Program-made: the position numbers and the translations under genes | Shown here: piece by piece, positions 9,596 to 23,892 of the stretch | Position numbering within the stretch: the first letter of the stretch is position 1 | Layout: the number at the start of each line of letters is the position of its first letter | The notes under the pieces: generated by a model | What the model was told of the DNA's origin: nothing | What the model saw: only the letters and a program-made list of their open reading frames with translations | Databases searched by the model: none | Source of the DNA: a virus | Strand: one strand, 5' to 3' | Virus record (IMG/VR): IMGVR_UViG_3300049812_000383 | Location: 1-23,892 of that record | Length of the DNA stretch: 23,892 bases

Positions 9596-9866
9596 TTTTT
9601 GTTTTCTCCAATTTATCTACATATAATGCGATAATACCATAATGTATTACTTTTAGCAAGTCATTTCTATCCTTGCCGTTCTTTTTTCCATATCGTTGTG
9701 CATACTTGAGTATGTTACCGATACAAAACCCTTCACCATGACCACCATCAATAATAAACTCTGTAGCCTGAAAGTTGTTTTGACTATAGTGTTGATCATA
9801 TGTTTGGTCAATGTAAGACTTCAGCTCTGCCAAAGTCTTACCCTCATCATATTTGTAATCTATCAT
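9582..9866 (-). CDS. DUF3310-type small phage protein
   Basis: A 94-aa protein with the pattern of the DUF3310 family found in many tailed phages: FCIGNILKYAQRYGKKNGKDRNDLLK, i.e. GN-x-x-KY-x-x-R followed by K-x-G and D-L-x-K, then a hydrophobic helix HYGIIALYVDKL. The biochemical function of the family is not established; it is often found among nucleotide-metabolism or replication genes. Here it sits directly upstream of the gp45 clamp, with an ATGA overlap to the oxygenase before it and a 14-nt overlap into gp45, so its expression is tied to the replication operon. The protein is soluble, with no signal peptide or membrane segment. Confidence 0.82.
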   Translation of the reverse strand: MIDYKYDEGKTLAELKSYIDQTYDQHYSQNNFQATEFIIDGGHGEGFCIGNILKYAQRYGKKNGKDRNDLLKVIHYGIIALYVDKLEKTKNETK

Positions 9867-11526: not shown

Positions 11527-12675
11527 TTAGAATTTTGATTCTTCAACCATTTCTTCTAATGTTTCCTCTGGAGTATTTTCCTCTAAAGGATTTACACCAG
11601 CATCAATCTTGGAGTATAGATCCAAGAAGGATTCTTTAGTGTCTTGATCGAACCTCGACACACAAAGTTCGATTGACTTTTGTTTGTCCTTGAAAATCGA
11701 AAACGATTTTGCAATGTGGTCTAGTCGCCGAGTTGAGATCAACTCATCAACACCACCATCAAAGAAGGTCTTACGAATAACTTCAGACCAAGTGACCAGA
11801 TTAGTTGCAAAGTCCTCATCTACAACACCATACTTTTTCATCGAACCAAGAACAATCTTTTTCTCGACTGATGCAGCAGGGTATGGTTGTTCGATAGTAA
11901 TTGCAAACCGTTCTAGGAAAGCCTCGTTAAGAATGTTAGTTCCAATGAAACGTCCATCCTCTGAACCTTTACCTTTAGTGTTGGCAGTTGCCATCACGTT
12001 GAAACCCTCTTTTGGAGTAATCCACTTGTTGACTTTCTTGAGATAAACACCCTTACCTTCAAGAACTGGTTGCAGACACATCAACTTGTTTGAACCCAAG
12101 TCACACTCATCAAGAAGCAAAGTGCAACCACGTTCCATTGCCTCGACAACTGGGCCAGGCACAAACTTGGTTTCACCATTGACCAAACGGAAACCACCGA
12201 GCAAATCATCTTCATCAGTTTCGATAGTGATGTTCACACGAATCAGTTCCTTACCCATCTCGGCATGAACCTGTTCGATCATAAGTGTCTTACCATTACC
12301 AGACAAACCAGTGGTAAAGACTGGATAAAATATTCCAGACTTGACAATCTGTTTAATGTCCTTGAAGTGACCCCAAGGAACAAAACCCTCAAAGGCACTA
12401 GGAACTAAATTCTGACGTTCCATATTAGATGCAATCAAATTCACAACAGCACTCTCTGTTTCAGTTGGAGTGTTTACTATCGTTGTTGGAGCAACCTCTC
12501 CAGGCAACTTGAACTGGTTATGTGCAACCTTGTATTGTTTCATAAACCAACCAGCAAGTGGCACACCAGCATTTGCAGATGCCTCTCGCACTTGTTGTTT
12601 GTTAATCACAGTTCCGATACCAAACATTTCAGTTGCAGAATCTACGAACTTTTGTTTTTGTGGTGAAAAAATCAT
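11527..12675 (-). CDS. MoxR/CobS-like AAA+ ATPase
   Basis: A 382-aa AAA+ ATPase. Walker A GLSGNGKT (123-130), Walker B LLLDECD (186-192) and sensor-1 NVMATANTKG are clear, followed by the arginine-finger region AFLERFAITIE. Marine T4-like phages carry this gene and it is often annotated cobS after the cobalt-chelatase subunit, but MoxR-type ATPases more generally work with VWA-domain partners to remodel or insert metal into target proteins. The immediately upstream gene is such a VWA protein, with a near-identical promoter. The N-terminal 100 residues resemble a small helical substrate domain; the C-terminus is very acidic (EENTPEETLEEMVEE). ATG at 12675 follows GAGAGG. The target in the infected cell is unknown. 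Confidence 0.93.
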   Translation of the reverse strand: MIFSPQKQKFVDSATEMFGIGTVINKQQVREASANAGVPLAGWFMKQYKVAHNQFKLPGEVAPTTIVNTPTETESAVVNLIASNMERQNLVPSAFEGFVPWGHFKDIKQIVKSGIFYPVFTTGLSGNGKTLMIEQVHAEMGKELIRVNITIETDEDDLLGGFRLVNGETKFVPGPVVEAMERGCTLLLDECDLGSNKLMCLQPVLEGKGVYLKKVNKWITPKEGFNVMATANTKGKGSEDGRFIGTNILNEAFLERFAITIEQPYPAASVEKKIVLGSMKKYGVVDEDFATNLVTWSEVIRKTFFDGGVDELISTRRLDHIAKSFSIFKDKQKSIELCVSRFDQDTKESFLDLYSKIDAGVNPLEENTPEETLEEMVEESKF

Positions 12676-12742: not shown

Positions 12743-14986
12743 TTATGCAACCATTTTTATAAAATTATTTAACAATGGTCTATTGACAATCTTACCAACC
12801 GACATTTTTGAAAACGCACGTTTCAGTTGAGCCTTACTCGCACCAACCTCGACATCAAGTTCAGAGTCCATATCCATACCACCTAACCCAGGCAAGATAT
12901 AGACAGTATCAAAACCTTGTGCATTTGGAACGATACCCACGTTTTCTTTTTTAATCTTTTTTGCGATTTCAAATGAGGCATCGTAACTACCATAACCCAT
13001 AACATATTCTACTTCAGATGGTTTTACAAAACCCTTCCTACCAGAACCAGCAACAAAGAAGTTTGTCACACTCATATCAGGCACTCTTTTTCTTAGAAGA
13101 TCTAGAAAAGCACTCATCTGGGTATCCCGATCATCATTGTATGAGTCAGAGCTGACTTTGTTACCGAACTTCTGATCAACATAGACAGAACGACCAACAC
13201 CATATCCATAGATACCCTCGTAACTCTCAAGAGTTTCACCATTATGAGTCTGATACTTATGAACACCACCGATTTTGTGACTAGCACCATCAGTAAGGAA
13301 AATCGTATGAACTTTCTGGACGTTATTTACTTTCTTAAACTCTGGGACTACTTGCAAAGCAGCAATGATTGCAGAGTTTAGTGGAGTGCCACCCAAGTTT
13401 AACATCTTTGGCACGTTATATGGATAACCCTCTTTTCTCCAATCTCTATAAGACCACTTACTCGCAATCATGTAGAGATAGTGCATCATATGCATTTCAT
13501 CTTTATTTTTCATCTTACTTGAAAAGAAGTGTAGAAGATTAAACGCATCTATTTTCAACTCGCCAGGCTTGAAAGGATTAATACTACCACCACGATAACT
13601 AAAATTACCATTTCTGTAGTATGCATCAGAGAAAGCATACACATCAAATGGAATGTTTACTTTCTTACAGAACCAAATCAAGTTGAACAACTGGTTTAGA
13701 GTGCCTTTAAGATTACTAGACATTGATCCAGACCAATCTAGGAACATCACTAATCCGTGATTAGTTGCACCAGGCAAGGTAGTGACTTTTGCAAACAAGT
13801 CATCATTGAACTTGTAAGTGTGTAAAGCACCCATATCTAAAACACCAGTCTTAGAAGTCAAAGCCTTTGCATACTGGTCAGCAGACTTTTTCATCTCAAA
13901 CTCTTTTACCATATAGGCAATAGTTTTTTTACTGTCATTCTTAGTTTTGTTAAACTCTTCTAATGTCTTATCAAAGTAAAGAGCACCATCAGTTTTAATC
14001 TGATCACTATAATGATTCTTGAAAATCTCTAAAATAGTGGAAGATGAAACTATAATTTTTTTCATATCCAACTCTGGAATGAAACCAGTTCTTTGTGGTT
14101 TTGCATCCTTATTCAAGAACTTTTTAGATGACTCACTCCAAGCATAATCAGTGGAAGCAGTGATAGGAGCATCACTATCTTTACCACCTTCAGAACCACC
14201 GATAACAATCTCTGTTTTTTCTTCTGATTCTTCTGAACCCTCATCATCTAAGTTGGCAGGGGCAGAAGGAGTCGAACCCTCATCTTCTGATTTGGAGTCA
14301 GATGTGTTACCACTGTCACCATACCCCTCTGATTCTTCCTTTGAACCTTCTGAACCAGAACCACTAGGAATACCATCTTCAGACTGAGCACCTCGCTGAG
14401 ACATATCTGACATATCTGGTGATGGGTTTTGCTCTTCACCTTGCGACTCTTCGTTCTCTGCAATATACTCATACAGTTCTTTTGCGAGGTCTAGAACTTC
14501 ATCTGGAGTTTTAGTCTGGTTTGCTTTTTGCACCCAGACTTTTTCCTCTTCTGAAAAAGGCACATCAATATGATGTTTGAAGTGAAGATTGATTCTGTCG
14601 ATCAGATTGTATTTTGAGATATCCTGTCCAACAGTCTCAAAAAAGTTTTGTGCGATTAACTCTTTATAACCTTTATTGAAAACTCTAACAGAGCCAGGAT
14701 ACTTCTTTTGAACTAACTTTTCAATTCGCACATCCTCTAGGACGTTGACAAAAGAGAACTCAATATTTTCGTTACGAGCCTTTTCCAACTGTTCTAAAGG
14801 AGTCCACAAAGCATGACCCACCTCATGCAACGTCATCAAGTCTTGAATATTTTTAGACATCTCCTTCCAGATAGGAAGTGATAACTCTCTATTCTTGACA
14901 TCAAACATCGCAGTGGACTGATTTCTGTGAACCACATGGATATCTTCTTCAGCAAGTAATTTTGCGAGTGTGGATAAATCTCTCAT
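12743..14986 (-). CDS. VWA-domain protein with zincin-like HEXXH motif (CobT-like partner)
   Basis: A 747-aa protein in three parts. Residues 1-170 carry HEVGH (54-58) and a later NVLEDVRIE (81-89), the arrangement of a zinc-binding, peptidase-like domain. Residues about 175-280 form a Ser/Glu/Asp/Gly-rich disordered linker. Residues 400-730 are a von Willebrand A domain with the MIDAS motif DWSGSMS (417-423) and a downstream GGTPLNS threonine. CobT-type proteins with VWA domains pair with MoxR/CobS ATPases; here the ATPase is the next gene. I chose the ATG at 14986 because TTAGAGGTTTAT precedes it; the upstream TTG lacks support. Whether the HEXXH site cuts a protein or only binds metal is not known. 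It has its own promoter. Confidence 0.92.
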   Translation of the reverse strand: MRDLSTLAKLLAEEDIHVVHRNQSTAMFDVKNRELSLPIWKEMSKNIQDLMTLHEVGHALWTPLEQLEKARNENIEFSFVNVLEDVRIEKLVQKKYPGSVRVFNKGYKELIAQNFFETVGQDISKYNLIDRINLHFKHHIDVPFSEEEKVWVQKANQTKTPDEVLDLAKELYEYIAENEESQGEEQNPSPDMSDMSQRGAQSEDGIPSGSGSEGSKEESEGYGDSGNTSDSKSEDEGSTPSAPANLDDEGSEESEEKTEIVIGGSEGGKDSDAPITASTDYAWSESSKKFLNKDAKPQRTGFIPELDMKKIIVSSSTILEIFKNHYSDQIKTDGALYFDKTLEEFNKTKNDSKKTIAYMVKEFEMKKSADQYAKALTSKTGVLDMGALHTYKFNDDLFAKVTTLPGATNHGLVMFLDWSGSMSSNLKGTLNQLFNLIWFCKKVNIPFDVYAFSDAYYRNGNFSYRGGSINPFKPGELKIDAFNLLHFFSSKMKNKDEMHMMHYLYMIASKWSYRDWRKEGYPYNVPKMLNLGGTPLNSAIIAALQVVPEFKKVNNVQKVHTIFLTDGASHKIGGVHKYQTHNGETLESYEGIYGYGVGRSVYVDQKFGNKVSSDSYNDDRDTQMSAFLDLLRKRVPDMSVTNFFVAGSGRKGFVKPSEVEYVMGYGSYDASFEIAKKIKKENVGIVPNAQGFDTVYILPGLGGMDMDSELDVEVGASKAQLKRAFSKMSVGKIVNRPLLNNFIKMVA

Positions 14987-15014
14987 ATAAACCTCTAATC
15001 TCAATTATGTATAT

Positions 15015-15043
15015 ATGCTAACATAAGGATTAGGGATTGTCAA
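15015..15043 (-). promoter_or_regulatory. Promoter of the VWA/zincin gene
   Basis: On the minus strand TTGACA (15043-15038), a 17-nt spacer, then TAGCAT (15020-15015) followed by ATATACATAA. The -35 sits within a short imperfect inverted repeat (15029-15053, ATTAGGG against CCTCTAAT) that could act as a weak terminator for the methyltransferase gene upstream. Confidence 0.7.
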
Positions 15044-15079
15044 CCCCTCTAATTTGTTTAACTAAATCAATGATTTACA

Positions 15080-15625
15080 TTATGGTTTTCTACCAAAAAA
15101 ATGTATAGCTTGCGAATCGGGCGAATCACTTCTACTAAAAAAGTACCAACAACAATTATCTTTACCACTGGACTTACTGCCCTCTATCCACTGTACTCTA
15201 CCGATACTTACCACTTTTTTCAGTAAAGGTAAGTATTCTATGCTTTGTTTAGTATGCATCCAGTCTGCATCAAATAATAACCATGTTGGTTTAAATGCAG
15301 TAAAATACTCTATCATGGGGTGTAATAGTTTTCTGTCCCACGGTGGATTTGTAATAATGTAGTCAGTTTCTAGGAACTCACTTGAACCCAAATCTCTAAA
15401 ATGATTTTTATGAATACTATCACTCTGTGGTTCAATGTCTGATGCCCAAGAACACCAACTTCCCTCAACCAAAGTCTCTATATGATTAACTAATGCACCA
15501 TCACCAGCACATGGTTCTGCAAATGCAAACTCACTCGGCAGATGTGGAACAAGAGGTTCTACTGCTTGCCAAGGTGTTGGATAGAAATCTCTATCTACTC
15601 TCTCGTAATCACTTCTTTTACCCAT
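15080..15625 (-). CDS. Putative SAM-dependent methyltransferase with NPPW motif
   Basis: A 181-aa protein. After DFYPTPWQAVEPL comes a SAM-binding motif I-like AEPCAGDGALV and then a catalytic IITNPPWDRKLL. NPPW/NPPY is the signature of N6-adenine or N4-cytosine DNA methyltransferases and some RNA or protein N-methyltransferases. The protein is short, with no obvious target-recognition domain, so its substrate is uncertain. Two starts are possible: GTG at 15628, which overlaps the gp46 stop as GTGA, or ATG at 15625, which I list. No strong Shine-Dalgarno is visible, so translation probably depends on ribosomes finishing gp46. It is the last gene of the gp55-47-46 unit. Confidence 0.8.
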   Translation of the reverse strand: MGKRSDYERVDRDFYPTPWQAVEPLVPHLPSEFAFAEPCAGDGALVNHIETLVEGSWCSWASDIEPQSDSIHKNHFRDLGSSEFLETDYIITNPPWDRKLLHPMIEYFTAFKPTWLLFDADWMHTKQSIEYLPLLKKVVSIGRVQWIEGSKSSGKDNCCWYFFSRSDSPDSQAIHFFGRKP

Positions 15626-17331
15626 CACGCAACATGACTAAAGTTTCTTACTTTTTCAAACTTAATTGTACTTCTGAATTTGTCTGCAAGTGCATCTTGT
15701 TTGTGACTAATCACAAATATATTTTCACCACTCAACGTATTCAGTATCTTTAAAAACTCGTCTGTCCCAGTTCCGTCAAGTGAACTGTCAAATATCTCAT
15801 CTAGTATAAGTAGATTCGTATTCGTAGAGTTTTTCATTTTTGCAACAGCTCTCCATGTAAAGAGTAATGCAAGGTCAATACGCATCTTCTCACCTTCACT
15901 AAAAGATGCATAGGTAAACTCATCACGATATCTCGACTTGATTGTTTCCTCAAAGTTTTCGTCTAGTGTAAAGTTCACATAAAACTCCATAGACGTTAGA
16001 TACTTATTGATAAGTTTATTCATAATCGGTAGATATTGTTTTATTATCTTTGTCTTAATACCTGTGTCCATGAGCATACTTCTTGCAGCCTCATGGTACA
16101 CTTTGTCCTCTTTGAGTTTGGTTTTTTGTTCACCTACCTTTTCGATATCAACTTTTAGACTTTCTAGTTTTTCTATATCTGATTCTTCCACACCATCTTT
16201 TTTGTATTGTTCTATTTCAGTGTGAAGTTTGACATTGAACTTTTCTAGTTCGTTAATAGATGTATTCAACTGTGCAATACTTACTTCGTTTTCTCGCACC
16301 AACTTTGCAATATCTTTATATTCTTTTATTTTATCAGTCACCCTTGTCATTTCACTTGAGAGTTTTTTCAGCCCATCAGACAGTTCTTTTGATTGTTCTG
16401 TTCTTTGTGTGATTGCCTTTGTTTTGAAAGCTTCATCTATGTCCTGTTCACAAGTAGGACACTCATCGTTGTTTTCTAGGAACTCAATCATTTTAATGTG
16501 ACGATTGTGTTTGTCCTTGAGTGTAAACTGAATGTCCTTCAACTTATCTTTTTTACTGGTAACTTGATCTTCACCGATCATGCTTTGTAGTAGTTCTTTA
16601 TTTTTATCCTCAAGGTCTTTTCTACCACTTCTTCTTTTCGATAACTCAAAATCATTCTCTTTTATAGCATCTTGTTTCTGTTGAATGATTTTATCTTTGT
16701 TCTCTTTCATAGATACGATATGACTTTCTTGCATATCAATTTTTGATGACACCAAATCATATTGATGTTCTATATCACGAATGTCCTCCAGAATAGTTTT
16801 GATTTTCTGTTTTAGTATAAGGTTCATGGTTGAAAAAATTTTTATATCTAATATCTCCTCAACGACTTCCCTTCTTTGTCTTGCTTTGAGTTGCATGAAT
16901 GGAGCCCAAGATGCACTGCCTAATATTACAACCTGTGTGAATGAACCATAGTTCAACTTGAGTATTTGTTGTTCTAATATCTTTTGATAATCTCTGACAT
17001 TGGCTTCAAGATTTAATAACTTGTCGTTTTGATATATCTCAAACTTGTTTGGTTTGATACCACGAATAACTTTGTATTGAACACTACCGATAGAAAACTC
17101 AACCTCAACCATAGTGGAACTATTGTTGATAGAGTTTACCATTTGATTTTTACTGATTGATCTGAAAGGTTTACCAAACAATCCAAAACACAATGCGTCA
17201 AGAATAGTTGACTTACCAGCACCATTCTCACCGATAATGAGTGTTGTAGGATTTCTGTCTAGTTGAATCTCTGTGGGTTGATTTCCAGTTGATAGAAAGT
17301 TTTTCCATCTCACATACTTAAAATTAATCAT
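15625..17331 (-). CDS. 46: Recombination exonuclease subunit, SbcC/Rad50-like ATPase (T4 gp46)
   Basis: The ATPase half of the gp46/gp47 nuclease that resects DNA ends for recombination-dependent replication and host DNA breakdown. 568 aa (T4: 560). Walker A GENGAGKS (34-41); long coiled-coil arms rich in Lys/Glu on either side of a zinc hook CPTC (291-294); ABC signature FSEGEK (477-482); Walker B LLILDE (507-512); and a terminal ISHK switch histidine. The ATG overlaps the gp47 stop as ATGA, giving coupled synthesis of the complex. All key residues are present. Confidence 0.98.
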   Translation of the reverse strand: MINFKYVRWKNFLSTGNQPTEIQLDRNPTTLIIGENGAGKSTILDALCFGLFGKPFRSISKNQMVNSINNSSTMVEVEFSIGSVQYKVIRGIKPNKFEIYQNDKLLNLEANVRDYQKILEQQILKLNYGSFTQVVILGSASWAPFMQLKARQRREVVEEILDIKIFSTMNLILKQKIKTILEDIRDIEHQYDLVSSKIDMQESHIVSMKENKDKIIQQKQDAIKENDFELSKRRSGRKDLEDKNKELLQSMIGEDQVTSKKDKLKDIQFTLKDKHNRHIKMIEFLENNDECPTCEQDIDEAFKTKAITQRTEQSKELSDGLKKLSSEMTRVTDKIKEYKDIAKLVRENEVSIAQLNTSINELEKFNVKLHTEIEQYKKDGVEESDIEKLESLKVDIEKVGEQKTKLKEDKVYHEAARSMLMDTGIKTKIIKQYLPIMNKLINKYLTSMEFYVNFTLDENFEETIKSRYRDEFTYASFSEGEKMRIDLALLFTWRAVAKMKNSTNTNLLILDEIFDSSLDGTGTDEFLKILNTLSGENIFVISHKQDALADKFRSTIKFEKVRNFSHVA

Positions 17332-18389
17332 ATTTCTAAATCTTGGGCCTCTTTGTAAAGTTGTCTCTGTATGTTTATTAATCTAGGTTTATCTAGTGTT
17401 GTATCCAGTTCCTTTACATACTTACTTAATATCGTCATTGTGTCTTGTGTATTCTCTACAATATCATCTGAAACAGAGTTAGCATCCATGTCAGAGAAGT
17501 CCTCTATAATTTTTACTTCGTGACAGTCTGCCTTTAACAATCTTTCAGTGAACTTATCAAACTGATATAAATCTTTTTTATTTACAACAATAAGTTTAAC
17601 ATAATTATCTTTATACTCTGTGATGTCGTGTTCATCATAGTTTTTGTCGGTGTCATCATAGTATATTTTCTTGTGAATAGTTCTAGGATTTATGATTCTG
17701 TCCAGTTGCCTGCTATCAGTGTTAAGGACATGAAATCCTTTTCTATCTCCACAATCGTTCCAATAAAACTCATATGGACTGCCCAAGTAATATATCTGGC
17801 CATCATCAGATTTGTGATGGAAATGCCCACTAAAAACACTATCAAATTTTGAAAAAATAGATTTACTATATCCATGTTCATTCTTCATACCTTTTATCAT
17901 ATCAAAACCAGCAATCTCTAAATGACCCATACACATATCGGCTCTTGATTGTTCTATAACCTTCATCGTTGAAGCATGGTTTGATGCATTTATCCAAGGC
18001 ACAAACAAAACAGACAACTCACCAAATATGGCCTCTTCTGCCTCTGGATATATTTTAATATTTTCATATCTGTCACCAATTAATTCTACAACAGAGTTTA
18101 CATCATTGGTGTTCTTAAAATAAGTATCATGGTTTCCAACCAGAACATGAAGTTCTATTCCAAGGTCTATGAAAGGCCTTATAAACTTCTCACGAAATTC
18201 TTTTGCCGTCCTATATGAAACATACTTGCGTCTGTCCATTATATCACCTAAGTGAATACAATGTTTGATATTATGTTCTTTTAGATATGGAAAAAATTGT
18301 TCATCATAAAACTTGTAAAAATACTCACTAAAATTTATGTTATCATTCCTTGCACCAAAATGAGTATCGGTAATTATTGCTACGTTCAT
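17328..18389 (-). CDS. 47: Recombination exonuclease subunit, SbcD/Mre11-like (T4 gp47)
   Basis: The nuclease half of the gp46/gp47 complex, 353 aa (T4: 339). Calcineurin-like phosphoesterase motifs are in order: DTH (Asp8, His10), GD (48-49), GNHD (85-88), GHLE (155-158) and GHFHH (188-192), which together hold two metal ions. The C-terminal third would be the capping and gp46-binding part. Its ATG overlaps the stop of the upstream oxygenase gene as ATGA, and its own stop overlaps gp46 in the same way. T4 keeps the order 55-47-46 with nrdH between 55 and 47; here an oxygenase takes that place. Confidence 0.98.
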   Translation of the reverse strand: MNVAIITDTHFGARNDNINFSEYFYKFYDEQFFPYLKEHNIKHCIHLGDIMDRRKYVSYRTAKEFREKFIRPFIDLGIELHVLVGNHDTYFKNTNDVNSVVELIGDRYENIKIYPEAEEAIFGELSVLFVPWINASNHASTMKVIEQSRADMCMGHLEIAGFDMIKGMKNEHGYSKSIFSKFDSVFSGHFHHKSDDGQIYYLGSPYEFYWNDCGDRKGFHVLNTDSRQLDRIINPRTIHKKIYYDDTDKNYDEHDITEYKDNYVKLIVVNKKDLYQFDKFTERLLKADCHEVKIIEDFSDMDANSVSDDIVENTQDTMTILSKYVKELDTTLDKPRLINIQRQLYKEAQDLEI

Positions 18390-19018
18390 CTAATATTTCC
18401 TACCACTACAATCCTTTCATCATCTGTTTGTGATACTGGAACTCTATGGTTCATCACAGATGGAAAAATAATTAAGTCACCCACTTTTGGATAGATATGT
18501 TTTTCTTCACCATTACCCACAAAAATAAATGGTTCTGTATTATCTGTTGTCTTTACATAATATGTCCAACTCAATGCAGATGGCCAGTGGTGATGTGTTT
18601 TTATATAGTGTCCTTTTCTATACAACGCACCCCAACAATCCTCTGTTTTAAAGTTATGTTCTTTTGGACAAAAGTTATCTAACACCAATCTTGATATTGT
18701 TTCAAACTCCTTTATAAAAAGGTGTGACTTATAATTAGTCATATGATAATTATCAAGATCTTGTTCTTTTTGTTTTTGTTCTACGTTTTCATCTCTAAAC
18801 TCTTTTATCCTAGTTTCTATCAACCAGTTTAAATCCTCAATATATGGGTGATATTCACAATCATCAGGCCATACTAGATTCTTTTCTTCTTCAAAAAGAT
18901 TATAATGTCGTGCCATAAATGCATATTGTAATTCTTGCACCACAATACCTTTCAGATCTGGCACTTCACCTTTTTTAACTTTAGGAGTTAAACCAATAGG
19001 GACTGTCAAATTTTCCAT
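18386..19018 (-). CDS. 2OG-Fe(II) oxygenase-like protein
   Basis: A 210-aa protein with the double-stranded beta-helix signature of marine-phage 2OG-Fe(II) oxygenases: GHYIKTHHHWPSALSWTYYV (metal ligands among His142-144), then GDLIIFPSVMNHRVP (distal His191) and a DERIVVVGN strand whose Arg202 could bind 2-oxoglutarate. The N-terminal 100 residues are helical and charged. The substrate is unknown. The gene starts 1 nt after the gp55 stop and overlaps gp47 as ATGA, so it is embedded between the late sigma factor and the recombination nuclease. Its codons look more AT-rich than those of gp46, which may point to later acquisition. Confidence 0.82.
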   Translation of the reverse strand: MENLTVPIGLTPKVKKGEVPDLKGIVVQELQYAFMARHYNLFEEEKNLVWPDDCEYHPYIEDLNWLIETRIKEFRDENVEQKQKEQDLDNYHMTNYKSHLFIKEFETISRLVLDNFCPKEHNFKTEDCWGALYRKGHYIKTHHHWPSALSWTYYVKTTDNTEPFIFVGNGEEKHIYPKVGDLIIFPSVMNHRVPVSQTDDERIVVVGNIR

Positions 19019-19019
19019 G

Positions 19020-19553
19020 TCAATTATCCATGAAGTTTTCTAAACCTTTTGGTTCATCTTTACTTTCTTTCTTTTTTGGTTTGTAAACAGCTTCATCTGG
19101 TAACATTACATTTGGATCAAATCCACCAATATTATAATTTGTAAAGTCTCCAGGCATAGTTGTATATTGTGCAAAATCTTGTTTCTCTATCATCTTATGT
19201 TTTACATGAGACTGTTTTTTCTCTTTTTGTATTCTACGAATAAATGCGTAGTAAATGATTTGTGTAAAATATGCAAATGGGTTTTTAGATTTTTCTGGAT
19301 CAAAGTTGTGTATGTATTGTAAACAGTTCTCTATCCCATCACTAATCATTTCTTGTCTATATGTGTAGTTTATAAAATTAGGCCTATACGATAGACCATT
19401 TGCTATCTTTAAAAAACATTCACCAATATAGTTAGATATTCTAGGTGGTTCACTCCCAGATTCCTCTGCATCTTTACATTGTTCTTTCCACTCTATCATA
19501 GCTTGATGAAATTTTTTGTTATCAACATAATGAACAGTTTTTTGTTTTGCCAT
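19020..19553 (-). CDS. 55: Late-transcription sigma factor (T4 gp55)
   Basis: gp55 replaces the host sigma factor and directs RNA polymerase to TATAAATA-type late promoters, working with the gp45 clamp. 177 aa (T4: 185). Strong T4-like stretches are HYVDNKKFHQAMIEWK, RQEMISDGIENCLQYIHNFD, KNPFAYFTQIIYYAFIRRI and QKEKKQ, which correspond to the sigma region-2-like core. The C-terminus GLENFMDN resembles the T4 clamp-binding tail (SLDFLYE). I chose the ATG at 19553 because AAGGAAA precedes it and it aligns with T4; a longer reading from 19616 starts with TTG and runs into the promoter. No gp33 co-activator was seen in this window. Confidence 0.97.
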   Translation of the reverse strand: MAKQKTVHYVDNKKFHQAMIEWKEQCKDAEESGSEPPRISNYIGECFLKIANGLSYRPNFINYTYRQEMISDGIENCLQYIHNFDPEKSKNPFAYFTQIIYYAFIRRIQKEKKQSHVKHKMIEKQDFAQYTTMPGDFTNYNIGGFDPNVMLPDEAVYKPKKKESKDEPKGLENFMDN

Positions 19554-19581
19554 TGAAATTTCCTTGCGAATAATTAGATAC

Positions 19582-19610
19582 ATCTTACCAAAAATACTTG
19601 GTGATGTCAA
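19582..19610 (-). promoter_or_regulatory. Promoter of gp55-oxygenase-47-46 unit
   Basis: On the minus strand TTGACA (19610-19605), a 17-nt spacer, then TAAGAT (19587-19582). The start would fall near 19575, leaving a short leader with AAGGAAA. Its -35 box lies 24 bp from that of the divergent plus-strand promoter. Confidence 0.7.
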
Positions 19611-19634
19611 GGTCAATTAATATTTTTTTGGGTG

Positions 19635-19663
19635 TTGACAAGACTGGAAAATGTGTGTATAAT
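19635..19663 (+). promoter_or_regulatory. Perfect consensus sigma70 promoter, antisense to all genes
   Basis: TTGACA (19635-19640), exactly 17 nt, then TATAAT (19658-19663): twelve of twelve to consensus. Transcription would start near 19670 and run rightward, antisense to the Sm-like gene and then uvsW. No plus-strand coding gene with a credible start follows. The transcript would begin close to the small stem TCAC-TTT-GTGA (19663-19673). Confidence 0.7.
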
Positions 19664-19687
19664 CACTTTGTGACTCATCAGATATAA

Positions 19688-20104
19688 CTAGTGTATTGTA
19701 CTTTTCTGTTTATCTAAGATAGCTTCCATTTCATCTAAATCATTTTCTAAATCTTCAATTGTCTCTTCTTTTTCTATTACTTTAATTTCTTTTTCTGTCG
19801 GGCCACCTTCTGTAAGATCCATATCTTCCATACTTTTTAAAACATACTCGTAGTATCTTTTCAATCCAACACTCACTGGTGTCATTAGCACGACTGTGTT
19901 TTTATGAATCGTAAACTCATCCTCATCAGAGTAAGGCTGTATCCATCGTGAAAGACCTAATGATTCTATCATGCCTTTTTCTGTGGTTCTATTATAAGTT
20001 TCCATTTTTAGTGGTGAAGATATTATCAAAATATTTCCATTCTCATCCTCAACATTGCAGATGATATCCTCTCCATTTGATAATTTTACCATTTGATAAC
20101 TCAT
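19688..20104 (-). CDS. Conserved hypothetical phage protein, Sm-like N-terminal fold
   Basis: A 138-aa protein that directly follows uvsW with an ATGA overlap. The N-terminal 60 residues read as an Sm/Lsm-like beta barrel: MVKLSNGEDIICNVE, then NILIISSPLKM, resembling small phage proteins of marine T4-like genomes that begin K-L-x-x-G-E-E/D-I-I. Residues 60-95 contain more beta strands (FTIHKNTVVLMTPVS). The last 35 residues are an acidic helix (DLENDLDEMEAILDKQK). Sm-like folds often bind RNA, but no RNA-binding residue can be confirmed here. The gene is the last of the unit, with no terminator hairpin seen after it. Function unknown. Confidence 0.85.
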   Translation of the reverse strand: MSYQMVKLSNGEDIICNVEDENGNILIISSPLKMETYNRTTEKGMIESLGLSRWIQPYSDEDEFTIHKNTVVLMTPVSVGLKRYYEYVLKSMEDMDLTEGGPTEKEIKVIEKEETIEDLENDLDEMEAILDKQKSTIH

Positions 20105-21552
20105 AGATTTACCTTACTAACTTTGTAACTAAAGTTTTCCCCTTTATAGATATTTAGTCTTTCTGTAAAGTGTCTATATGTGAAGTTTTGTCTTGATTTG
20201 TACGAGGCATTGTCGGCAATATCAAACAGGCGAACAACTGATTTATTCTCCATCTTTCTAAGTCCACGCCCAATCGACTGCAAGACCCTGATTTTGCTTT
20301 TTGAAGGAGAGGCGAACACGATGTTGTTGATATTCCTAATGTTAATACCAGTAGAAAATGTACCATAACTCGCAATGATAAGAGAGTCTTTTTCTTTTTC
20401 AACGATACCCCTAATCTTCTCTCTCGTTTCAGTTGTCGTTCCACCATATACAAAGAATACTTTCTTGTCAAGCTTTTTAATTTCATTGTGTAACAAAACT
20501 CCGTGTTTATCCACCAGTTGGAAAAGAACCAGTGTATTACCTTTTATTGTCTTGCACAAATTCTCTATAAACTTATTTCTCTTCGTATGTGATACAATGT
20601 AGTTTAGTTCCTCTGCGTATGTATATTTCTTAATCCTTTTACATTCTTCATCGGTATGTTTGAGCACAATACAATCTATGTCTAGTTTTGCAAGTGTTTC
20701 ATCGTCCATCAGTTCTTTAGTGGTAGTGACTTGTGTGACTTTACCAAACAAACCTTCAAGCACAAGTCTATGTGTTTGTGTTCCATCAAGTGTTCCTGTC
20801 AATCCAAACCTATATTTACAATCAGCACTTCTTGCCATTATATCTGTGAGTGACTTGGCCTTAAATAAATGAGCTTCATCACCTATGATACAACCATATT
20901 GTGCAAAGTAAGGTCTGTGAAGTTTATACAAACTCTGCCATGTAGAAATCACCACAGGTTTTTTAGAACCCTTGTCATGTCCAGCATACACTCTATGAAT
21001 ATGCTCGTCTTTCCAACCGTAGTCAATAAAGTCAGAATACATCTGTTCAACCAAAGATGTCGTTGGAACAAGTATCAGTGTTTTTAGATTCATCAAATGA
21101 TAATAACGAACAAGTGTGTAGATTATTAGTGACTTACCCGAAGCAGTAGGAGATAAAAGAAGACAACGATTTGTTCGTATAGCATGAAATATTGCATCAA
21201 TTTGGTAGCCACGAAATTCAATAGACTTCCCTCTGGCTTTTGGTCGTAGGGACTCGGCAAATTTTCTAACGCTTTCACGATCAATATTCCGTTCATCTTC
21301 TACTCCTTCCTCTATTATATATTCTACAGAGTTTCTAGAACAAAACTCTTTTATGTAAGGTAAAAGACCAACATATATTCTACCATTGTGTGGAGAAAAC
21401 AATCGTATTTTACCATCCCAAAGTTTCTTACGATAATGAGGCATATACTTAGCCCCAGGCACTTCAAACGTGAAGTAGTCTGTAAGTTCTCTTTCCAGAT
21501 CGTCATCTACCTTGAGTTGTAGATACACCTCATTTATTTTAGATATTAACAT
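20101..21552 (-). CDS. uvsW: ATP-dependent recombination helicase UvsW
   Basis: UvsW is a superfamily 2 helicase that reverses stalled forks, migrates Holliday junctions and removes R-loops, shifting T4 from origin-dependent to recombination-dependent replication. 483 aa (T4: about 500). The N-terminal domain matches T4 (KLWDGKIRLF). Helicase motifs: I TASGKS (136-141), II DEAH (225-228), III GLTGTL (250-255), and VI QSIGRGLRK near the C-terminus, which ends in KVNL as in T4. I chose the ATG at 21552, which aligns with T4, over an upstream reading. It overlaps the preceding oxygenase by 14 nt with only a weak ribosome site, suggesting coupling. Confidence 0.97.
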   Translation of the reverse strand: MLISKINEVYLQLKVDDDLERELTDYFTFEVPGAKYMPHYRKKLWDGKIRLFSPHNGRIYVGLLPYIKEFCSRNSVEYIIEEGVEDERNIDRESVRKFAESLRPKARGKSIEFRGYQIDAIFHAIRTNRCLLLSPTASGKSLIIYTLVRYYHLMNLKTLILVPTTSLVEQMYSDFIDYGWKDEHIHRVYAGHDKGSKKPVVISTWQSLYKLHRPYFAQYGCIIGDEAHLFKAKSLTDIMARSADCKYRFGLTGTLDGTQTHRLVLEGLFGKVTQVTTTKELMDDETLAKLDIDCIVLKHTDEECKRIKKYTYAEELNYIVSHTKRNKFIENLCKTIKGNTLVLFQLVDKHGVLLHNEIKKLDKKVFFVYGGTTTETREKIRGIVEKEKDSLIIASYGTFSTGINIRNINNIVFASPSKSKIRVLQSIGRGLRKMENKSVVRLFDIADNASYKSRQNFTYRHFTERLNIYKGENFSYKVSKVNL

Positions 21553-22156
21553 CTTGCAAACTATTCGGTTCTCCGTACATACCTCTGATAATAAAGTTCC
21601 AAGATACACTTACTCTTTCAGAACCAGTTGGAGGCACCCAATGTGTTAACCAAGATGGAAAGATAATACCAACTCCAGTTGTGCAAGGTATCGCAATGAT
21701 ATCAGAGTTCAGTGTATTATCTTTATTTTTGTTTGGCCTCATAACGTGTGCGTGTGGCCGTGGATCAAAAAACTGTATAGGGGATGATAGGTCATCAGAC
21801 TGCACATAATACACACCAGAGAAAAGATGATTAGAATGTGTATGTGGTGCGTGTGCGTTTCCTTTTGGTAGTGCATTACCCCACATCCCTGTCATTTCTA
21901 GTGAATCGTACTTGAACTCCATCTTTTTCACAACCTCGTGAGTTGCGTCATTGATCGTATTTCTCAACCTCGCAAACTCTGGTATTTTGTGAAGATTATT
22001 TTTTGTGTGTTTTGATAAACCAGCAACATCTAGGGTTTCATTATTTTTTGTACCCTTTATATAATCAACCATAATCTGTTGTTCTTCTTGCTCCATCTTA
22101 TGATTGAATATATGTAGTGCCGTGGGAAAAACTAAATGCGTCTTAATTTTTTCCAT
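21539..22156 (-). CDS. 2OG-Fe(II) oxygenase-like protein
   Basis: A 205-aa protein of the phage 2OG-Fe(II) oxygenase type. Signature: HAPHTHSNHLFSGVYYV (His105, His107), FFDPRPHA, then GVGIIFPSWLTHWVPP (distal His172) and SERVSVSWNF with Arg181 as the probable 2-oxoglutarate anchor. The ATG at 22156 is preferred over a longer reading from 22210 that lies inside the upstream oxygenase. The gene overlaps the upstream oxygenase and uvsW by 14 nt each, so it is part of the uvsY-uvsW unit. Its substrate is unknown. It is only distantly similar to the oxygenase before it, so the pair is not a recent tandem duplication. Confidence 0.86.
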   Translation of the reverse strand: MEKIKTHLVFPTALHIFNHKMEQEEQQIMVDYIKGTKNNETLDVAGLSKHTKNNLHKIPEFARLRNTINDATHEVVKKMEFKYDSLEMTGMWGNALPKGNAHAPHTHSNHLFSGVYYVQSDDLSSPIQFFDPRPHAHVMRPNKNKDNTLNSDIIAIPCTTGVGIIFPSWLTHWVPPTGSERVSVSWNFIIRGMYGEPNSLQDVNI

Positions 22157-22706
22157 AGAAGTCCAGCCTATCTGAATTTGCATCACTTCTAAAAGTTTTA
22201 AAAACAACACAAGTTCTTAAATCATAACATTGTCTAGAAACTGGCATGGCTTGATGATTTAGTTTTGCATCAAAAACAAATAAACGGTTTCCAATATAGT
22301 TTACATATTTTTCTATCTCATTTTTTTGTTCATTCCAAATAACAGTTCCACCCAACCACTCTGGTTTCCAATCAAGTCTTGGATAATATATCATTGTAAA
22401 ATCGCCATCGTCTATGTGTAAATGTGGTTCTATACCATGAGTGTGTGCATTGCAATAAACTCTTTTAAAATATTGAACTTTATATTTTTCCTCAAAGTTA
22501 TATTTTGTTTTTGCAGTTTCCCAAATTGAATTAAGGAAACTATACTCTGGTTCAATTGTTTCATGTCCACAAAAAGTATGCCAATGTTTATTAACTTCTT
22601 TACCATTAGATTTATAATCATATTGCCAAGTTATTTCTTTCATTTCCATATCAATTAATTCTGCGACATGAGGTTCTAACACATTATCGTAAATATCACA
22701 AATCAT
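22143..22706 (-). CDS. 2OG-Fe(II) oxygenase, prolyl-hydroxylase-like
   Basis: A 187-aa protein with a classical HxD...H iron site: EPHLHIDDGDFT (His97, Asp99), then GGTVIW, GNRLFVFDAKLNHQAMPVS (distal His151) and YDLRTCVVFK (Arg164 for 2-oxoglutarate). This pattern is closer to prolyl-4-hydroxylase-like enzymes than that of the other three oxygenases here. The substrate is unknown. AGGAG lies 7 nt before the ATG. It follows uvsY after 35 nt and overlaps the next oxygenase by 14 nt. The coding sequence is very AT-rich compared with uvsW, consistent with a separately acquired accessory gene. Confidence 0.87.
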   Translation of the reverse strand: MICDIYDNVLEPHVAELIDMEMKEITWQYDYKSNGKEVNKHWHTFCGHETIEPEYSFLNSIWETAKTKYNFEEKYKVQYFKRVYCNAHTHGIEPHLHIDDGDFTMIYYPRLDWKPEWLGGTVIWNEQKNEIEKYVNYIGNRLFVFDAKLNHQAMPVSRQCYDLRTCVVFKTFRSDANSDRLDFYGKN

Positions 22707-22741
22707 TTTCTTCTCCTACATTAATCAAGTCACTATATTAT

Positions 22742-23173
22742 TTAGTATGTCAACCCTGCTTCAAACTTCTTCCATTCAATAGCATTTTTGATATCCCAAC
22801 CACGATTATCCACAGACTTAATTACACCCTTGATGTAATCAACGACTGTTTCTAAATATCCTATTTTATTTTCTGCATCTATGATTTCTTCATCAGCAGA
22901 TATATAAACACCTAGATCTGTCTTTAGAACTTTAAGGTCAAAAGGTTTACTTGCATATATTTTTGCATCAGCTTTACCACCATAGTATTCCCACTTTTCA
23001 CGATACAATCGTTTGTAATCTCCTTTTGCCTTAAACAAAAGAAGTTCAAATTTAGATTTGTGGTCTAAATACTTTGCTTTGATTTCTTGATTTTTTAAAG
23101 ATTCAGTATCTAAGTGTTCATCATCTACTCTCAAGTCTTGTGAGACTTGAAGTTTCAATTCATCCAAATTCAT
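22742..23173 (-). CDS. uvsY: Recombination mediator UvsY
   Basis: UvsY loads the UvsX recombinase onto gp32-coated single-stranded DNA. 143 aa (T4: 137). T4-like stretches are WEYYGGKADA (T4 has LDYYSGRGDG), the central VLKTDLGVYISADEEI and the C-terminal VDNRGWDIKNAIEWKKFEAG (T4 has SRGFAIKHIQDMRAFEAG). I chose the ATG at 23173, preceded by CGGAGTGAAA; an earlier GTG two codons upstream is less likely. It lies 12 nt after the tail-tube-fold gene. UvsX itself is not in the window. A TATAAATT box at 23215-23208 could give it an extra late promoter. Confidence 0.93.
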   Translation of the reverse strand: MNLDELKLQVSQDLRVDDEHLDTESLKNQEIKAKYLDHKSKFELLLFKAKGDYKRLYREKWEYYGGKADAKIYASKPFDLKVLKTDLGVYISADEEIIDAENKIGYLETVVDYIKGVIKSVDNRGWDIKNAIEWKKFEAGLTY

Positions 23174-23185
23174 TTTCACTCCGTA

Positions 23186-23776
23186 TTATAAAGTCACTAT
23201 CTCATATAATTTATAACGAAAGTCAACAGTGGCTGTGAGATATTCAACATCTGCGACTTGTTGTGTATAGTCTAGTCCAGACAACGCAACTGGGAAACAA
23301 TCAGCAAACCGAACCTCTACGAGTGGATTATTTTTATTTGACAGTATTGAAAGTGTCGCATCAGAATATAAAGGTCTTTCTGCTACTGCTTGACCAACTT
23401 TACCTATATCAGTTTGTGCTTTACCAGCTGCGTTTGATGTGTTTGATGTGCTAGAACGAAAGTCTGTAAACTGTTGTCTAGTTTTTGGAAACCCTAAACC
23501 TATCATCCAGTTATGCATTTCTATGTAGTTTTCTAAACTTTCATCCACAAGAAACTGAACATTCAAACTTTCGTAAGTTACCTTATCACCAACGTAAGGT
23601 ATATCTTTGTAGGGTGTTGGTATTACTGCTTCACCCAAACTTATGCCAGGGATATTCGCAGTCTGAACAAAGAACTGCACTTTAGGTATCTGATTCAGAA
23701 TAAACCTAAACTGTGTTGGACTACTATAATCCAACTGATCTGGTTGTCTATTGAGAGGTGATGTTTCCGTTGTCAT
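23186..23776 (-). CDS. Tail-tube-fold structural protein (gp19-like)
   Basis: A 196-aa virion protein. The pattern FRFILNQIPKVQFFVQ, ANIPGISLGEA, YVGDKVTYESLNVQFLVDE, NYIEMHNWMIGLGFP and a final beta-rich VEYLTATVDFRYKLYEI follows the tail-tube fold of T4 gp19 (ALPAG, VAGDRTFDDWTVTVMND, FEVTLALDYWE). That fold is shared by tube, tube-initiator and tube-terminator proteins, so which T4 protein it equals is uncertain; its place after a probable structural gene and before uvsY does not settle this. The region 100-125 is Ser/Thr/Asn-rich. The ATG has no Shine-Dalgarno but is abutted by a perfect T4-type late promoter, in keeping with a late structural gene. Confidence 0.78.
   Translation of the reverse strand: MTTETSPLNRQPDQLDYSSPTQFRFILNQIPKVQFFVQTANIPGISLGEAVIPTPYKDIPYVGDKVTYESLNVQFLVDESLENYIEMHNWMIGLGFPKTRQQFTDFRSSTSNTSNAAGKAQTDIGKVGQAVAERPLYSDATLSILSNKNNPLVEVRFADCFPVALSGLDYTQQVADVEYLTATVDFRYKLYEIVTL
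23208..23215 (-). promoter_or_regulatory. Weak late-promoter-like box upstream of uvsY
   Basis: TATAAATT on the minus strand, seven of eight to the T4 late consensus, 35 nt before the uvsY ATG. It lies in the end of the tail gene and may be chance in AT-rich sequence. Confidence 0.25.
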
Positions 23777-23789
23777 AATAGTATTTATA
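23777..23789 (-). promoter_or_regulatory. T4-type late promoter
   Basis: The minus strand reads TATAAATACTATT, the complete extended T4 late consensus recognised by gp55. It ends one base before the ATG of the tail-tube-fold gene, so the message would be leaderless or nearly so. Confidence 0.85.
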
Positions 23790-23798
23790 AAGAAAAAA

Positions 23799-23821
23799 AA
23801 GAGGGGAACAAGTCCCCTCTT
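23799..23821 (-). terminator. Intrinsic terminator of the upstream structural gene
   Basis: A perfect 9-bp stem (arms 23799-23807 and 23813-23821, loop ACAAG) rich in G:C at its core. On the minus strand it is followed by a further run of six T, a classical rho-independent terminator. It lies 23 nt after the stop at 23845 and just before the late promoter. Confidence 0.88.
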
Positions 23822-23844
23822 CTTTTGGTTGGTTGGTAAAAAGA

Positions 23845-23892
23845 TTACATAAGGTTAGTAACTTTAACTCTTCTGTAATACTTGTTGGTATT
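23845..23892 (-). CDS. C-terminal end of an upstream gene, probably structural
   Basis: Fifteen in-frame codons reading NTNKYYRRVKVTNLM, then TAA at 23847-23845, followed by a terminator. Only the very end is present. In marine T4-like phages the capsid gene gp23 lies near uvsY, and an NKYYR-type end would suit a structural protein, but this is not enough to name it. Confidence 0.5.
   Translation of the reverse strand, partial: NTNKYYRRVKVTNLM

Follow-up and report, generated by a model that had tools for sequence, protein, structure and literature searches.

Results

The locus and its promoters

The window, by which we mean the whole stretch of DNA analysed here, is a 23.9-kb virus record (23,892 nt) that encodes gp55, an Sm-like protein, UvsW, two 2OG-Fe(II) oxygenases, an endonuclease V-type protein, UvsY, gp47 and gp46, and judged from this gene content it comes from a T4-like marine phage. 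The features considered below are collected in Table 1. The Sm-like protein is related by sequence to the solved chain 3BY7 and has an acidic tail ending in STIH; in the window clade, pelagiphages and Sinorhizobium phages this tail ends in an almost invariant histidine (TIH, KYH or TFH) that resembles a docking tip and is absent from many cyanophages. At the far end of the gene run, the 196-aa ORF at 23,186–23,776 has a weak tail-tube match, and a strong terminator-like hairpin, present on both strands, lies at 23,794–23,826, just upstream of this ORF and of the late-type promoter site.

Table 1. Coordinates of the features discussed, in the window and in phage isolates; the 5' ends in isolates are sequence predictions.
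Feature	Position	Strand	Remarks
-35 box TTGACA of the antisense promoter	19635..19640	+	Bases 1-5 never vary among the 197 relatives scoring 10/12 or better
-10 box TATAAT of the antisense promoter	19658..19663	+	17-nt spacer; TA...T invariant in 197 relatives
Gap of 24 bp separating the divergent -35 boxes	19611..19634	+	T-rich just 5' of the antisense -35 box; possible UP-like tract
Start-site dyad TCAC-TTT-GTGA	19663..19673	+	Hairpin that covaries in relatives; stem of just 3-4 bp in the window phage
Conserved TGT	19669..19671	+	Predicted start at G19670, the 7th base past the -10 box
TCAGA motif	19678..19682	+	Among predicted first transcribed bases; 31/114 distinct relatives vs 1.8 in shuffles
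gp55 late sigma factor gene	19020..19553	-	ATG at 19553
gp55 sigma-70 promoter TTGACA-N17-TAAGAT	19582..19610	-	10/12, with TGn; divergent from the antisense promoter
Sm-like gene	19688..20104	-	138 aa; PF16243, 36 bits, above cut-off; convergent to the antisense promoter
uvsW helicase gene	20101..21609	-	Upstream of the Sm-like gene
Late-type promoter TATAAATA	23782..23789	-	Upstream of the run ORF 23186-23776 - uvsY - ... - uvsW - Sm-like gene
Predicted antisense 5' end, HTVC008M	about 80,260	-	
Predicted antisense 5' end, Mosig	21,352	+	
Predicted antisense 5' end, Syn9	123,698	-	
Predicted antisense 5' end, S-PM2	84,439	-	
Predicted antisense 5' end, P-SSM2	124,805	-	
Predicted antisense 5' end, P-HM1	116,774	-	

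A first-pass annotation had singled out the plus-strand site at 19,635–19,663 as a 12/12 sigma-70 promoter with a 17-nt spacer, the best in the window, followed by no plus-strand gene and lying back to back with a gp55 promoter across 24 bp between the -35 boxes, and all of this was borne out by the sequence. A scan of positions 14,000–23,892 returned 50 promoter-like sites, among which the antisense promoter ranked first and was the sole 12/12 site; it is also the single match to TTGACA-N15-19-TATAAT in the whole window. Nearby plus-strand ORFs are not conserved in the relatives scanned. The site lacks a canonical extended -10 element, a TG directly abutting TATAAT with no TGn, and the T-rich stretch 5' of its -35 box is also found in window-clade relatives. 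Dinucleotide shuffles of the window gave an expectation of 0.06 such matches, with one match in 6 of 100 shuffles; a lone 12/12 site in an AT-rich genome is only mildly improbable. It is conservation in relatives that places the promoter far beyond chance and led us to reject a chance match as its origin.

Elsewhere in the window, a 753-aa peptidase-like ORF (12,743–15,004) contains, in frame within its Ser/Glu-rich linker, a complete tRNA-Trp(CCA) gene whose CCA is encoded (14,254–14,328, minus strand). Locus L050, whose peptidase is 59% identical to that of the window, carries a tRNA-Trp(CCA) in the same place (9,772–9,846, plus strand); in both the tRNA overlaps coding sequence on the same strand, and comparison of the two acceptor stems reveals compensatory changes (AGGGGTA/TGCCCCT versus AGGAGAA/TTCTCCT).

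Conservation of the antisense promoter in relatives

We collected about 240 viral loci with three gp55 protein searches, and a profile of the Sm-like gene matched in 239 of the loci examined. For 202 non-redundant 110-nt flanks located 3' of the Sm-like stop codon, we then scored the best promoter facing back into the gene. In this set, which was chosen by gp55 similarity and to which the proportions apply, 197 of 202 flanks contain a promoter of at least 10/12 (12/12 in 83, 11/12 in 79, 10/12 in 35 and 9 or less in five), as compared with a mean best score of 8.3 in shuffles. The promoter is spread over cyanophages, pelagiphages and Sinorhizobium phages, and is present in the isolates HTVC008M, Mosig, P-SSM2, Syn9, S-PM2, P-HM1, ACG-2014b and Sinorhizobium phage phiM12. 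At twelve other genomic matches to the Sm-like profile in these isolate genomes the antisense promoter is absent. Weak profile matches at other ORFs were seen in P-HM1, Syn9, S-PM2, P-SSM2, ACG-2014b and Mosig, all without the promoter.

The annotation had named conservation of the boxes despite divergence of the flanks as a check, and this check was passed strongly: in the 197 loci, bases 1–5 of the -35 box and the TA...T of the -10 box are invariant, whereas the spacer mostly carries less than 0.8 bit. The boxes are 17 nt apart in 137 loci and 16 nt apart in 60. Across the 51 clusters into which the Sm-like proteins fall at 60% identity, the boxes remain near invariant. On this pattern it is near certain that the antisense promoter is real and under selection, and it very probably does something. 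Inspection of the five low-scoring flanks revealed a 10/12 site overlapping the gene end in L236 and a 9/12 site in register in L166; a good antisense promoter is absent from L246 (and its near copy L247), L148 and L086 (Melnitz). The Melnitz type is the clearest exception, the promoter there having been lost or degraded.

Position relative to the Sm-like gene and gp55

The -10 box lies 7–69 nt from the Sm-like stop codon in the 197 loci, and in 178 of 183 relatives the gene immediately upstream of the Sm-like gene is uvsW. Where inserted genes place gp55 0.65–1.7 kb away (for example in L011, L013, L042, L048 and L068), the promoter is still found beside the Sm-like stop. Because it keeps to the Sm-like 3' end when other genes intervene, a gp55-centred role is unlikely, and the earlier proposal of polymerase occupancy affecting gp55 was rejected as its core function: the promoter tracks the Sm-like gene. 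The antisense and gp55 promoters often interlock in cyanophage loci (with a gap of -16 in 44 loci), and in many cyanophages with this arrangement a secondary effect on gp55 is possible.

A covarying dyad at the predicted start site

A TG(T/A/C) is found 5–9 nt past the -10 box in 116 distinct relatives, 109 of which have TGT. It sits in the loop of a dyad whose first arm, of 4–6 nt, immediately follows the -10 box and whose complementary arm corresponds to the predicted first transcribed bases. Examples include AACGG-TGT-CCGTT in Mosig, AGGC-ATGT-GCCT in HTVC008M, CAGGA-ATG-TCCTG in phiM12, AGGT-CTTGT-ACCT in L024 and AGACT-ATGT-AGTCT in L107, where the right arm is directly 3' of TGT. Watson-Crick stems of at least 4 bp occur in 57 of 116 distinct sequences, whereas permutations that reassign left and right parts among the sequences give 10.7 (sd 3.0). 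Stems of this length were found at the site in 60/120 loci versus 4–26/120 in windows slid elsewhere along the same loci, the highest of these neighbours (at -30) being attributed to the inverted pair of -35 boxes from the antisense and gp55 promoters. In all, 33 different stems of at least 4 bp were observed, pairing being preserved as the bases vary. Following the right arm, TTCAGA is present in 23/114 distinct relatives as compared with 0.4 in shuffles.

Near-complete stems with a single mismatch, read on the promoter's own strand, have G-T in 16 cases and A-C in none. The presence of G-T without A-C suggests that a hairpin forms in the promoter's own strand, although this bias is suggestive rather than proof since one cyanophage ancestor is common to several of the G-T cases and other mismatches are seen in 17 cases. 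A hairpin in the sense mRNA is disfavoured, as the wobble pairs fit the opposite strand. If transcription starts at the G of the TG, 7–8 nt past the -10 box, the left arm would be left untranscribed, so that non-template DNA in the initiating complex could adopt the complete hairpin but RNA could not. With 33 stems and a mismatch count of 16 to 0, the dyad does not have the conserved half-sites, equal on both strands, of a symmetric operator.

We tentatively suggest, while holding the chances to be somewhat against it, that this represents a new kind of promoter part. It would be a non-template-strand hairpin of the initiating bubble, in which the discriminator forms one arm, the start site the loop and the initially transcribed nucleotides the other arm. 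Compensatory substitutions would maintain it across marine T4-like phages and the related Sinorhizobium phages, and it would control promoter escape or the loading of a factor at an antisense promoter common to the family and governing the Sm-like–uvsW unit. To our knowledge, a covarying start-site hairpin has not been described as a promoter element, and if confirmed it would be a new one.

The predicted transcript

No conserved antisense ORF was found in the viral contigs, where ORF lengths scatter from fewer than 10 to 107 aa, and a hidden plus-strand gene was rejected on this ground. We also rejected the codon for the C-terminal histidine of the window clade (CAT/CAC) as an antisense start codon, as the ORFs it would open are very short and not conserved, and the histidine itself is missing from many cyanophages. 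No consistent terminator-like site that would define a short RNA was seen within 1.5 kb in relatives, nor any in the window, and a search for an Rfam family returned only sub-threshold chance matches. Codon conservation at the 3' end of the Sm-like gene is only slightly raised (0.68 versus about 0.58), so the body of the RNA is not marked as functional. Taken together, the lack of a conserved ORF, terminator or Rfam family and the slight codon rise fit the act of antisense transcription, or simple pairing in cis, better than a structured RNA. The suggestion in the first-pass annotation of a discrete short regulatory RNA is weakened, there being no consistent terminator and no clear RNA-level constraint inside the gene.

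Further copies of the dyad promoter

Half of the eight isolate genomes (Mosig, HTVC008M, P-SSM2 and P-HM1) have a single dyad promoter. In phiM12, a second promoter with an identical dyad lies in the 650-bp gap before nrdJ; in ACG-2014b there are two others, at 12,641 and 46,771 (both plus strand), one of them preceding cpeT and one a small gene, and Syn9 and S-PM2 have one further copy each (52,741 and 162,737, both plus strand). The further copies in ACG-2014b, Syn9 and S-PM2 share the cyanophage start-site motif, about AACNCTGYNAGGGTT, and are upstream of ordinary genes. Because a few cyanophages carry the same dyad in this position, the class is not only antisense, and dyad promoters may constitute a small promoter class.

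In phiM12, phiM7 and phiN3, the promoter beside the Sm-like gene is followed on its own strand by an ORF of 50–55 codons, which argues that the promoter works. This ORF (L254 3,619–3,771, minus strand, in phiM12; L341 in phiM7; L340 in phiN3) is convergent, lies between the antisense promoter and the Sm-like stop, and ends in NVxPxYRRF; it is unannotated in phiN3.

Discussion

A proposed early antisense brake on the Sm-like–uvsW unit

That the promoter is antisense to the Sm-like gene and uvsW, as first annotated, is supported by the conserved relation in relatives, and of the roles then proposed a brake is the one we favour; the sequence, its position, its conservation and the dyad are observed, whereas transcription, its timing, the braking effect and the hairpin's role are what we infer. 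We give about an even chance to the joint reading that this sigma-70 promoter is part of the 3' end of the uvsW–Sm-like unit and restrains the unit early in infection. Host RNA polymerase would start at about G19670 and read back through the Sm-like gene toward uvsW; while host sigma-70 polymerase is active, this transcription would hold down the unit through collision, RNA-RNA pairing or both, and the brake would lapse once gp55 takes over. The hairpin in the promoter's own strand would probably tune escape from an unusually tight promoter, or be read by a factor in the open bubble.

Two lines of background favour such a brake. The T4 UvsW helicase is expressed from a late promoter and unwinds and removes origin R-loops (PMC3016281), providing a reason to keep UvsW off early, and in cyanomyoviruses early transcription is believed to rely on unmodified host sigma-70 polymerase, with gp55 serving late (PMC2984593). 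Counted against it are the chance-level occurrence of the late-type site TATAAATA, with one exact copy in the window where 2.3 are expected, the only slight rise in codon conservation, the copies of the dyad promoter before ordinary genes, the phiM12-type small ORF and the Melnitz-type loss or degradation. A brake alone also leaves the dyad and the TTCAGA motif unexplained.

If the promoter does restrain UvsW early, it would provide a simple switch, from host sigma to phage sigma, between origin-driven and recombination-driven replication, a change that in T4 rests partly on late UvsW expression. The phages concerned are relatives of very abundant marine phages, and the 5' ends predicted in named isolates make the antisense claim checkable against RNA-seq of published infections.

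Alternative explanations

An unlikely alternative, though the best placed of those we considered, is a small RNA acting in trans through its 5' end (GU, the right arm and UUCAGA). The enrichment of TTCAGA after the right arm, a strong single-purpose promoter and the Sm-fold protein encoded alongside would all fit, but the RNA has neither terminator nor Rfam family, constraint downstream is not clear, and the constant overlap with the 3' end of the same gene is needless for a trans-acting RNA.

Much the same low standing belongs to a roadblock or insulator, in which polymerase held at the promoter would stop transcripts of the uvsW unit from entering the gp55 operon, the RNA being incidental. 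Consensus promoters bind polymerase tightly, the site is just beyond the last gene of a unit that in the window has no terminator at that point, and the hairpin could slow escape. However, the promoter stays by the Sm-like stop when the next genes are other than gp55, and the conserved transcribed motif is left unexplained.

It is improbable that the transcript primes DNA synthesis at an R-loop origin, as at T4 oriF and oriG. A gene-less, mostly single-copy promoter beside uvsY, uvsW, gp46 and gp47 would suit an origin, and T4 origins comprise a promoter and an A+T-rich element at which R-loop formation is independent of specific sequences (PMC3016281); here the whole region is A+T rich, so this element does not discriminate. 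The base-skew extremes of eight complete phage genomes are about 10–87 kb from the element, giving no sign of an origin at the site, and some genomes have second copies upstream of genes.

More improbable still is an operator, with a phage repressor binding the dyad to control a small set of sigma-70 promoters. The palindrome spans the start site, phiM12, ACG-2014b, Syn9 and S-PM2 each have two or three promoters whose dyads are identical or almost so, and none of four genomes cross-tested contains the dyad of another. Yet stem sequences vary freely among close relatives around a fixed loop, the restriction of G-T mismatches to one strand is unexpected for a symmetric operator, and four of the eight genomes have a single copy. 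Finally, a relic promoter of a small gene since lost by marine phages, as the ORF under the same promoter in phiM12, phiM7 and phiN3 might suggest, is hardly credible, since decay would be expected and the boxes are near invariant across the 51 protein clusters.

Comparison with known systems

None of the papers searched describes this antisense promoter beside uvsW. The phage lambda OOP RNA is transcribed from a cis-antisense promoter convergent to the 3' end of cII, back into cII, and is a short RNA with its own terminator. The window promoter is similarly convergent to its putative target and just past its 3' end, and differs from OOP in that no terminator was found, a start-site dyad is present and conservation extends over an entire phage family. 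The OOP small RNA is reported to suppress CII phenotypes (PMC5869508). CfrI of cyanophage S-PM2, a marine T4-like phage, is an antisense non-coding RNA positioned on the 3' side of the target (PMC2984593; PMC5931967); it is about 225 nt long and located at psbA and a homing endonuclease gene, a different locus from that of the uvsW-side promoter.

As at T4 oriF and oriG, the promoter is near recombination genes and its transcript may itself matter, UvsW acting on the T4 transcript (PMC3016281); the T4 origins, however, use MotA middle promoters and are replication-tested, whereas the antisense promoter is known from sequence and base skew is uninformative. The proposed hairpin recalls RfaH/ops, in which a small non-template-strand hairpin in the transcription bubble is read out through its loop (PMC5995543), but ops has one set sequence and functions during elongation, whereas the hairpin considered here is at the start site and its varied stems argue against one fixed ops-like sequence. 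The promoter shares host sigma-70 boxes with the early promoters of T4-like cyanophages (PMC2984593); those precede early genes, whereas the antisense promoter is directed against the neighbouring genes and its dyad is rare among promoters of the same genomes. Phage cis-antisense RNAs at gene 3' ends are thus already known from OOP and CfrI, and what is new is the family-wide fixation of such a promoter together with a covarying hairpin at its start site.
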